A stretch of 64,000 nucleotides of DNA from Fimbriiglobus ruber (GTDB lineage: Bacteria; Planctomycetota; Planctomycetia; Gemmatales; Gemmataceae), in contig NZ_NIDE01000001.1 in NCBI RefSeq assembly GCF_002197845.1, forward strand, positions 930,001-994,000, written 5' to 3'. Position 1 is the stretch's first letter. Each line of letters begins with the position of its first letter. The notes beneath the pieces were generated by a model that was given only the letters and a program-made list of their open reading frames with translations, was not told the origin of the DNA and did not search any database. The translations under genes were made by a program, and so were the position numbers. Shown in pieces: positions 10,372-32,263 of the stretch.

Positions 10372-10521
10372 ATACGATTCCGCCGACTTCGAACACATCC
10401 GCGTCCCGTCCGCTCGTCGCAATCCGTCCCGGCCAGCACATCGGCGTCCATCACACCGATTGTTTCGGAGGCCGACCCGCGCGTATGATGGCACGGGGTT
10501 TGGTGGGTCAGAGGTCGCATC

Positions 10522-29118: not shown

Positions 29119-30477
29119 ATGGCACCGACTATCCGTTTCTCCGAAACAGTTCTCCGCGAACATGCCCTCGCCATCTGGTCCGCTGCAGTCGAAGCGGTGC
29201 GGCCGGAACCGCTCGTCGCGGCTGCGGTGCTCGATTTTCCGACCGCGTGGCAAGCCGCCCTACGGGCCGCGCCGCGAGTGCTCGTCGTCGGGTGCGGGAA
29301 AGCCGGCGCGGCGATGGCAGCGGGATTGGAAACCGGCTGCGAGCAGTACCTTCCCAAACTCAGTGGTCTGGTGAACGTGCCCGAAGGTTCCACACGACTG
29401 CTTCAACGACTTCGCCTCAACCCGGCTCGGCCGGCCGGCAGTAATCACCCGACCGCTGCCGGAGTCGCCGGTGCGGACGAGATGCTCGAATTGCTCGCGG
29501 GCGCGGGGCCGGACGATGTCGCGATCTGCCTGATTTCGGGCGGCGGTTCCGCCCTGCTTCCGGCACCGGCACATGGAATCACGCTCGAAGACAAACAGGC
29601 TGTTACGAAACTGCTCCACGCCAGCGGCGCGACGATCGCCGAAATGAACGCGGTCCGCAAACACCTCTCGCGTGTCAAAGGTGGCCGTCTCGCGGCGGCG
29701 TTTCGCGGCAAACTCCTCGTCAGCCTGATCATCTCGGACGTCGTGGGAGACCCACTCGACGTGATCGCGTCCGGCCCGACCGCGCCCGATCCCTCGACGT
29801 TCGCCGACGCACTCGGCGTGATCAAGAAGTACGGGTTGACGGGCAAAGTACCTGCATCTGTTAGCCGGTTGCTGGAGCGGAGCGGGGACAAAGGTGAACC
29901 AGAGACTCTGAAGGAGCAACCGCCCCACGTTCACAATCTGGTCATCGGCAACAACGCCGTCGCGTTGGCCGCGGCCGCCCGACGAGCCGGCGAACTCGGC
30001 TACGGCGTGTTGAACCTCGGAGCGTTTATCGAAGGCGAGACCCGCGAGGTGGCAGCCGTCGTGGTTGGGATTGTGCGATCGATTCGCTCTAATGGTCAGC
30101 CGTTAGCCATGGCCGCGTGTTTACTCATCGGCGGCGAGACGACGGTCGTACTCGGCGACCAACCGGGCCTCGGAGGGCGGAACCAGGAGTTCGTTCTCGC
30201 GGCCCTGAACCGACTCGGCACGGAACACATGCTTGGCGTCTGTGTGCTGAGCGGGGGAACGGACGGGGAAGATGGGCCGACCGACGCGGCCGGGGCCGTC
30301 GCGACGATCGAGACGCTAACGCGGGCCTCCGCACAAAGCCTATCCCCACGCGAATATCTGGACCGACACGACAGTTACTCGTTTTTTGACCGCGTGGACG
30401 GACTCATCCGTACCGGCCTGACCGACACGAACGTCACCGACATTCGCGTCGTGTTGGTGACGCAACTCGACGCTTGA
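29119..30477 (+). CDS. Glycerate 2-kinase (DUF4147/MOFRL type)
   Basis: The protein has 452 residues. N-terminal DUF4147: VLVVGCGKAGAAMAAGLE, then GSNHPTAAGVAGADEMLELL, CLISGGGSALLPAPAHGITL, MNAVRKHLSRVKGGRLAAAF, and VVGDPLDVIASGPTAPDPST. C-terminal MOFRL-type: CLLIGGETTVVLGDQPGLGG, RNQEFVLAALNR and CVLSGGTDGEDGPTDAAGAV. It would phosphorylate glycerate with ATP to 2-phosphoglycerate in the cytoplasm. The start is 2 nt after the DUF1501 stop. A glycerate kinase tied to a secreted DUF1501 gene suggests use of an acid or sugar product, but that is inference. Confidence 0.9.
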   Translation: MAPTIRFSETVLREHALAIWSAAVEAVRPEPLVAAAVLDFPTAWQAALRAAPRVLVVGCGKAGAAMAAGLETGCEQYLPKLSGLVNVPEGSTRLLQRLRLNPARPAGSNHPTAAGVAGADEMLELLAGAGPDDVAICLISGGGSALLPAPAHGITLEDKQAVTKLLHASGATIAEMNAVRKHLSRVKGGRLAAAFRGKLLVSLIISDVVGDPLDVIASGPTAPDPSTFADALGVIKKYGLTGKVPASVSRLLERSGDKGEPETLKEQPPHVHNLVIGNNAVALAAAARRAGELGYGVLNLGAFIEGETREVAAVVVGIVRSIRSNGQPLAMAACLLIGGETTVVLGDQPGLGGRNQEFVLAALNRLGTEHMLGVCVLSGGTDGEDGPTDAAGAVATIETLTRASAQSLSPREYLDRHDSYSFFDRVDGLIRTGLTDTNVTDIRVVLVTQLDA

Positions 30478-30608: not shown

Positions 30609-30632
30609 AAAACTGGCACGCCGATTGCAAAT
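30609..30632 (+). promoter_or_regulatory. Consensus sigma-54 (-24/-12) promoter
   Basis: CTGGCACGCCGATTGCA at 30613-30629 fits the sigma-54 consensus YTGGCACG-N4-TTGCW at every position, and the flanking AAAA before it and AAT after it also agree. Taking the C of TTGC (30628) as -12 predicts a start near 30640. No plus-strand gene follows before a strong terminator at 30736-30775, so the promoter appears to serve an RNA. Confidence 0.8.
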
Positions 30633-30639
30633 TCAATCT

Positions 30640-30776
30640 TTCGTAGGATGCCGTCCATACCCACCGCGGCTTACGGTGTTGGGGCTGGAACGGAAGAGGC
30701 CCGGCGTGGCCCGGACAGTCCACGCCGGAATGATCGCCGACCGACTCGCACGCGAGTCGGTCGGCGGGCTTTTTTG
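30640..30776 (+). ncRNA. Candidate sigma-54-dependent small RNA (~137 nt)
   Basis: The element is bounded by a consensus sigma-54 promoter (predicted start about 30640) and an intrinsic terminator (30736-30775). There is no coding-like frame with a ribosome-binding site. A hairpin CCGGCGTGG/CCACGCCGG (30701-30709 with 30720-30728, 10-nt loop) lies just before the terminator stem, and the 5' ~60 nt look largely single-stranded. It does not match tmRNA, SRP RNA, 6S RNA or RNase P features I know. It lies between the converging glycerate kinase and ceramidase-like genes. Known sigma-54 small RNAs (GlmY/GlmZ, Qrr, CrcZ) act on mRNAs; the target here is unknown. Confidence 0.6.
30736..30775 (+). 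terminator. Intrinsic terminator
   Basis: A perfect 13-bp GC-rich stem (30736-30748 with 30753-30765, loop CACG) is followed by GGGC and six T residues (30770-30775). It is the clearest Rho-independent terminator in the window and defines the end of the candidate small RNA. Confidence 0.85.
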
Positions 30777-30826: not shown

Positions 30827-32263
30827 TCAGCCTTTCTTGACCGCGACTTTATCAAGCAGCTTGAGTACTGCCGGTACGATTTTCTCAGACGCACCCACTT
30901 CCAGGTAACTCGACCGCGCCCGCCACGTTTCGTACCCGCCGAGTTTGTGTTGGGCCGGGGTCGGCAGGTAGCCGTTGTAGCCGTTCGCCAGTTCGATCGT
31001 GAATGTCCGCTGGATCGGGCTCTTCTTTTTGATCTCCAGACCGATCTCGGTAAACACCTCACACGGTATGGCAACGATCCCAAGATCCCCGATACGCAAG
31101 GCCTGGAGTGGGACTTTCACCGTGTCCGGGTAGTTTGCGATCTTGATCGTCTCGCCGGCGTAGACCTCCTCGGCCGTCCGGGCCGGCTTGCCACCGAGTC
31201 GCGCCAGCACGCCGGTCGCCCGCTCGATCTCGGCGGCCGTAGGCTTGCGGACGCCGAGTTCCAGTTCCGCGACGGCTGCCGCAAGGGTCACATCCGCGTG
31301 GTAGGTCGCTCCGGTGGTTGCTTTCCCCACTGCCTTGACGACAGTCTCCGCCACGGTCCGGCACCGCTCGCCGGGTTGGCTTTTCAGCGGTGGCTTGCTG
31401 AAATCAATGTTGTTCACGTCGCCGCTCGTCCCGTTCGACAAGATGCCGACGAACTTCGGCTCCTTGTCGTCCGCCCCAACCGCTCCGCCGACGCGATCGC
31501 CGAACACGCCGAAGTAGTCGGCCGAAAGGGCCGGCAGGTCGCCGACGTAGTGGAGCGAGTAGTTCGCGAGCAGGGCGAGCGGCCGGCCGGCCGAGGAGCG
31601 GACGGCGAGGACCGAGACCTCTGGGTCGACGGTCCCGGCTTGTTCGAGGAGCCCAGGGTTTTGGTTCCCGGGGTTCATGCGAACCACGTCCGTGGTTCCG
31701 CCGAATGGGTCAAGGTTGACCGTCCCCGGCTTCATTTTCCATCGTCGATTGAACAACTCGGAGGACTCCTGGACCGACCCCCATGCGAGTTCGGCCGGTT
31801 CCAGATTCACGGCGGCTTTCTCGATCCCGGCCGCGATCTTCTCGGTCAGAAACGTCACGTATTCCGGGTTCGGGTCGCTGCCGAAGACCGACGTCAGGGT
31901 CGGGGCGGTGTGCGTGTGGGTGCCGGAGATGAGCATGTTGGTAGCCGGGATGCCGGTCTTGGCTTCGGCTTTCTTTTTAGCGGCATCGATCAGGTCGCGT
32001 GGGACGACGCAGCTATCCACGACGACGATCGCCAACTTGGTCTTGCCGTCGTCCAGCACGAGGCAGCGGGCGTGGAGTGGGTCGTTCGCCTTGGTCGCCT
32101 GCCGGTCTGAAAAGCCGCCGTTCACGGACACGGGAAACTTTTCCGGGGTCACGTCCATCGCGTAGGCGCCGGCGCGGACCGTTAATTTCGACCCGGCTGA
32201 CGCGACCGCGGTTGAGCAAATCAACACGATCAGCGCGGTGAAACCTCGCACGAAAGAAGACAT
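30827..32263 (-). CDS. Exported neutral/alkaline ceramidase-like protein
   Basis: The protein has 478 residues with a signal peptide (MSSFVRGFTALIVLICSTAV, cleavage near ASAGS). The neutral/alkaline ceramidase N-terminal pattern is clear: RAGAYAMDVTPEKFPVSVNG, then HARCLVLDDGKTKLAIVVVD, NMLISGTHTHTAPTLTSVFG (the THTH metal site), NRRWKMKPGTVNLDPFG, LLANYSLHYVGD and GILSNGTSGDVNNIDF. The C-terminal ceramidase domain is absent or reduced; the length is well below the ~650-750 of full ceramidases. Many such planctomycete proteins are annotated only by this domain, so amidase activity on ceramide is not certain. It acts outside the cytoplasm. Confidence 0.87.
   Translation of the reverse strand: MSSFVRGFTALIVLICSTAVASAGSKLTVRAGAYAMDVTPEKFPVSVNGGFSDRQATKANDPLHARCLVLDDGKTKLAIVVVDSCVVPRDLIDAAKKKAEAKTGIPATNMLISGTHTHTAPTLTSVFGSDPNPEYVTFLTEKIAAGIEKAAVNLEPAELAWGSVQESSELFNRRWKMKPGTVNLDPFGGTTDVVRMNPGNQNPGLLEQAGTVDPEVSVLAVRSSAGRPLALLANYSLHYVGDLPALSADYFGVFGDRVGGAVGADDKEPKFVGILSNGTSGDVNNIDFSKPPLKSQPGERCRTVAETVVKAVGKATTGATYHADVTLAAAVAELELGVRKPTAAEIERATGVLARLGGKPARTAEEVYAGETIKIANYPDTVKVPLQALRIGDLGIVAIPCEVFTEIGLEIKKKSPIQRTFTIELANGYNGYLPTPAQHKLGGYETWRARSSYLEVGASEKIVPAVLKLLDKVAVKKG

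Follow-up and report, generated by a model that had tools for sequence, protein, structure and literature searches.

A promoter that fits the full sigma-54 consensus lies in a gap between two converging genes, which raises the question of what it transcribes. The first-pass annotation of the window (the whole 64-kb stretch of DNA that was analysed) had proposed a sigma-54-controlled small RNA at this position. Comparison with relatives in the order Gemmatales supported this proposal well. It also suggested a function. We put a probability of about 0.75 on the reading that the sigma-54 RNA is an RpoN-induced anti-sRNA (sponge), which would titrate a second small RNA, here called X.

The locus and its promoter

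The features of the locus are listed in Table 1. The -24/-12 promoter was an exact consensus, as had been claimed, and it was the sole perfect match to TGGCACN5TTGCW within the window. When one mismatch was allowed, two sites were found compared to 1.33 expected by chance, and a single promoter site alone is therefore weak evidence. The other site, TGGCACGGGGTTTGGT at 10489-10504 (+), had one mismatch and was within the chance expectation. The promoter and the RNA of the window stood above chance because they were conserved in relatives. The sigma factor itself was present in the window genome, where Sigma54_DBD was located on contig C19, and this domain was detected in 94 of the 102 Gemmatales genomes, a set that included drafts of varying completeness.

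The sigma-54 spacing suggested that the RNA starts near 30640. The predicted RNA (30640-30776) folded better than 200/200 shuffled sequences, with a z of -4.5. Both structures of the first-pass annotation, the hairpin at 30701-30728 and the terminator, were present. The terminator consisted of a 15-bp stem (30734-30767) followed by GCTTTTTT, with the T6 at 30770-30775. The most conserved part of the element was the core at 30681-30699. The loop of hairpin 1 was similar to the CCGGAAC loop of relatives, which is a second site complementary to X. The window RNA gave no match to the covariance models of Rfam release 15, including those of GlmY/GlmZ, Qrr and CrcZ, and X did not match any Rfam family. 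Matches of the window and of X at the gathering and permissive thresholds were at chance level only and were rejected. The neighbouring genes converged on the gap, with the kinase gene ending at 30477 (+) and the Ceramidase_alk gene ending at 30827 (-).

Table 1. Coordinates of the window element, its neighbours and the partner RNA X of the same genome
Feature	Position	Strand	Basis
Glycerate 2-kinase gene (DUF4147 + MOFRL)	29119-30477	+	Pfam; conserved upstream neighbour
Sigma-54 (-24/-12) promoter TGGCACGCCGATTGCA	30614-30629	+	exact consensus
5' leader (variable) of the predicted RNA	30640-30680	+	promoter geometry; length and sequence differ between relatives
Core GGGGCTGGAACGGAAGAGG (antisense to the X seed)	30681-30699	+	conserved in Gemmatales; pairing energy
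Hairpin 1, loop CCCGGACAGT	30701-30728	+	predicted fold
Hairpin 2 and T6, predicted intrinsic terminator	30734-30775	+	terminator scan
Neutral/alkaline ceramidase-like gene (Ceramidase_alk)	30827-32263	-	Pfam, synteny; convergent neighbour
Candidate sRNA X of the window genome (loci L194, L217)	G000:C4:173002-173075	+	TTGACA promoter, CU-rich seed, covarying terminator

Conservation of the element in Gemmatales

A DNA search of relatives gave a short common stretch, which was narrowed down to the core GGGGCTGGAACRGAAGAGG, located downstream of the sigma-54 site. In a pattern search with at most one mismatch, the core was found in 33 of the 102 Gemmatales genomes, and the reversed control pattern gave 0. 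The promoter was upstream of the core in all of these genomes (33/33). The first-pass annotation had expected a real RNA to keep its promoter and hairpins with variable sequence between them. This was what the comparison gave, since promoter, core, hairpin 1 and a GC-rich second hairpin co-occurred across Gemmatales and the intervening sequence varied. The exact core was found on 21 contigs of the named-genome collection, mostly of planctomycetes with the promoter. Five exact-core matches without the promoter (L061, L072, L075, L079 and L081) came from other or unplaced genomes, with records of bacterium RHO3 and RHO1, Azonexus, Cytophagales and Eisenbergiella.

Of the 41 loci examined, about 33 had the glycerate 2-kinase gene as their immediate upstream neighbour in the same orientation. 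A downstream ceramidase gene was confined to genus g17 and the clade of the window. The kinase gene was used as an anchor in core-negative genomes, and extra members were obtained that carried a sigma-54 site and altered cores, among them GGGGCCGGAATCGAGAAGAGG, GGGGCCGGTTGAGAAGAGG and GGGGCCGGCAGAAAAGAGG. These cores retained the halves GGGGCYGG and AAGAGG, and the middle differed in length. Core length was variable, mostly 18-23 nt, and the differences were not multiples of three. The combination of this promoter, the core and the covarying hairpin was present in 55 Gemmatales genomes, with the usual place directly 3' of the kinase gene. The promoter was perfect in 25/55 members and had at most one mismatch in 51/55, compared to 0 and 0.36 in shuffled upstream sequence. 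The observed count was partly selected, because the compilation of the 55 members required a promoter with at most two mismatches; the 33 core-found genomes were the unselected test.

Covariation was observed in hairpin 1. Among 24 distinct CCGGAAC-loop hairpins of relatives, the stem was 88% paired, and in 8 of the 9 pairs both sides had changed. Covariation scored 0.893 compared to 0.197 for shuffled sequences, and 0/500 shuffles reached this value. At the place of hairpin 2, other members had a GC-rich hairpin, often without the T-run. Two drafts of the window genus (G001 and G002, 86-87% complete) had no such element 3' of the kinase gene, and it was also missing downstream of this gene in several other Gemmataceae. 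Loss of the promoter in close relatives, which the first-pass annotation had named as contrary evidence, was therefore found only locally, at the site 3' of the kinase gene in the two same-genus drafts. Strong matches to the class-wide core model R1 were confined to the order Gemmatales, and those outside it were weak.

The candidate small RNA X

A relaxed two-half pattern led to the 21-mer GGGGCCGGAACAGAGAAGAGG, which was ultraconserved and occurred in most Gemmatales as well as in several further families of Planctomycetia. It usually had 1-2 copies per genome, and the copy of the window genome was at G000:C4:173016-173036. The opposite strand of the 21-mer had the anatomy of a small gene, with TTGACA, a -10-like element, the seed CCTCTTCTCTGTTCCGGCCCC, a hairpin CCCCACCG...CGGTGGGG and a T-run. 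TTGAC[ACG] was located 27-49 nt upstream of the 21-mer, read on this strand, in 56/66 loci compared to 2.7 expected, and a T-run followed in 61/66 loci. The terminator helix covaried, with 95% paired, 6/10 pairs two-sided and 0/500 shuffles as good. The seed was more single-stranded than the remainder of X in 47/47 genomes. In the window genome, X was located between glycerophosphodiester phosphodiesterase-like and metallophosphoesterase-like genes, which were named from sequence only. When other long X complements were searched for in the own genome as candidate targets, 26 matches were found compared to 20 control matches, with no clear excess. In family f3 (L300-L303), X was without TTGACA at the usual place and an extra hairpin was located immediately before the seed. 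The promoter of these copies may lie further upstream.

By covariance model, X was present in 87 of the 102 Gemmatales genomes, and in the phylum sample strong matches were confined to the class Planctomycetia. X also occurred in Gemmatales genomes and in other families where no sigma-54 RNA was seen, and there X would have to act without the sigma-54 RNA. Since X was more widespread than its partner, it is probably the older of the two and probably acts without it. If so, the presence of X in families without the sponge is expected. The sigma-54 RNA was accompanied by X in 51/55 genomes. X was not found in the other four (G017, G036, G106 and G116), all of which were drafts. Pattern matches in G017 and G036 were rejected as X, as they were the opposite strand of the sponge itself.

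Complementarity between the core and X

The core was the reverse complement of the 21-nt X seed CCUCUUCUCUGUUCCGGCCCC apart from a small central bulge, in which two X nucleotides were bulged out. Duplex energies were computed with the X seed alone; those with whole X were uninformative, because the GC-rich terminator stem dominated them. The best X-seed duplex fell on the core in 47/47 testable genomes, with a mean of -40.8 kcal/mol compared to a genomic null mean of -22.6 kcal/mol, and 8/9400 shuffles were as good. The window core with its own X gave -37.7 kcal/mol, and 0/200 shuffles were as good. When the window RNA and X were folded jointly, about 21 kcal/mol was gained relative to the separate folds.

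The raw complementarity was partly given by construction, because the core had served as the query that led to X. Several independent points nevertheless supported the predicted pairing, namely the promoter and terminator of X, the members found by synteny, matching changes, and flank position +2. The members located by kinase synteny and promoter, not by the core, also carried X complements. Matching changes were observed in G016, where X has CCTCTTT with AAAGAGG, and in G028, where X has CCTCTTTT with AAAAGAGG. Flank position +2 was paired in 0.74 of the genomes compared to 0.50 with X and partner permuted, although this permutation ignores kinship. Outside the core, 51 X-complementary 7-mers were found compared to 11.1 +/- 3.5 in shuffles, again with kinship ignored. 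They were mostly CCGGAAC in the hairpin-1 loop, and many members had this second X site. In a swap test among variant X sequences, own partners were not favoured by energy. When the window RNA was folded alone, just 20% of the core was predicted to be unpaired, which counted against the sponge reading. In the 47-genome comparison, the sponge core was only slightly more open than the remainder of the sponge RNA.

Some members carried further X-complementary stretches. Locus L305 (G062:C146:13500-17500) had two sigma-54 promoters about 440 bases apart, at about 914 and 1352, with an X-complementary core after each. These are apparently tandem sponges in one genome. Locus L188 of G031, located 3' of the kinase gene, had a sigma-54 site of the TGGTAC type followed by a 21-nt stretch perfectly complementary to X, and its leader contained the X complement again as a partial copy, CCTGGAACAGAGGGC. 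In genus g17 (L165, L167 and L170), GAAGAGG in the hairpin-2 region was a third possible X site.

Proposed mechanism and alternative readings

Comparison between genomes supported the promoter, the conservation of the element, the covariation of the hairpin, the existence and anatomy of X, and the complementarity. From these we infer that both RNAs are transcribed and that the window RNA depends on sigma-54/RpoN. The core was antisense to a second conserved sRNA, and this pointed away from direct regulation of mRNAs and towards a sponge. In the proposed mechanism, the window would encode at 30640-30775 a short non-coding RNA transcribed from the sigma-54 promoter. It would be made when RpoN and an enhancer-binding activator are active, and it would end at its own terminator. 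X would be transcribed at another place in the genome, from a promoter of the TTGACA type. In the cell, the core GGGGCUGGAACGGAAGAGG would form a duplex with the single-stranded X seed CCUCUUCUCUGUUCCGGCCCC, interrupted by a small central bulge, and in many relatives CCGGAAC in the hairpin-1 loop would provide a second site. The sigma-54 RNA would thereby occupy the seed and invade the base of the terminator stem of X. X would be titrated or marked for decay, and any repression of mRNAs by X would be relieved. Target mimics bind without being cut, and the variable central bulge of the core resembles such mimics. With somewhat better than even confidence, we favour a wider history in which X is an ancient, near-universal Planctomycetia sRNA with an ultraconserved 21-nt seed, for which Gemmatales evolved a dedicated RpoN-controlled decoy, combining a bulged target mimic with a hairpin-loop site.

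Other readings of the pair were weighed. Complementarity is symmetric, and the sigma-54 RNA has structured hairpins and a conserved second loop. It might thus be the main regulator of mRNAs or a protein, with X as its constitutive antagonist. However, X was the broader of the two, being present in Gemmatales and other families without the sigma-54 RNA, and the conserved unpaired motifs of the sigma-54 RNA were X complements. This reversal of roles is unlikely. An ordinary sigma-54 sRNA might also act directly on mRNAs, as known sigma-54 sRNAs often do. X would then share its targets, or the match would have another cause, and the pairing with X is predicted here from sequence and energy. However, the conserved part was a near-complete antisense of the 21-nt X seed, with the matching changes in G016 and G028. 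We consider it quite improbable.

In many members, core and CCGGAAC loop contained the sequence GGA, as might a decoy for a protein such as CsrA/RsmA, for which conserved A(N)GGA motifs in loops are characteristic. Such a role is very improbable, however, since several cores had no GGA (GGCAG, GGTTG) and kept both X-complementary halves, and since the motifs reached well beyond GGA and matched X. A coding element, an mRNA leader, or a chance combination of promoter and terminator is hardly credible. A 43-codon ATG frame does start at about 30649, inside a longer open frame. However, the non-triplet core indels across the family disfavoured coding, and the small ORF was rejected because of these indels and the lack of a shared frame. 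The earlier statement that the segment is non-coding held in the sense that no frame was conserved across the family. A leader was rejected for the window because the neighbouring genes converge, and chance was opposed by the recurrence of the core with the promoter in 55 genomes.

The sponge reading has consequences beyond this locus. A published count gave 8 sRNA families for the PVC group (PMC9029176). The present results apparently add two new, interacting RNA families in one phylum, one of which is almost universal in its order. If the reading is true, one regulatory RNA is controlled by another in a phylum from which hardly any sRNA has been characterised, and the two form a switch that couples RpoN signals to a global post-transcriptional regulator. 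It would give a direct handle on the role of RpoN in large-genome planctomycetes and on a conserved post-transcriptional regulator. Regulator and decoy co-evolving across dozens of genomes would be a natural experiment, and the sponge hypothesis makes simple base-level predictions that are testable in cultured Gemmataceae.

Comparison with known systems

GlmY/GlmZ, Qrr and CrcZ are sigma-54-dependent small RNAs. They have protein or mRNA targets, whereas the target of the window RNA would be an sRNA. Nothing was found in the literature on sigma-54 sRNAs in planctomycetes. The Rhodopirellula-1 motif is a candidate structured RNA of Planctomycetes and Proteobacteria, described without an Rfam accession (Weinberg et al. 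2010, PMC2864571). It resembles X and the window RNA at the level of this description. Two other systems involve pairing between sRNAs, and no sequence relation to the planctomycete RNAs was found for either. SroC is a sponge of GcvB in Enterobacteriaceae, and its parent operon gltIJKL has promoters for both sigma-70 and sigma-54 (PMC9731577). Like the RNA proposed here, SroC is a small RNA that pairs with a second sRNA and thereby lifts the effect of that sRNA. However, SroC is cut from the 3' region of an mRNA by RNase E, whereas the window RNA would start from a sigma-54 promoter of its own within an intergenic gap. In Campylobacter jejuni, the GA-rich CjNC110 and the CU-rich CjNC140 bind each other, and sigma-54 control has been suggested for CjNC110 (PMC10470494). 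This pair is from a different phylum and makes contact between stem-loop 1 regions, unlike the planctomycete pair with its long antisense core and bulge. Together, SroC and CjNC110/CjNC140 show that such a kind of RNA pair exists.
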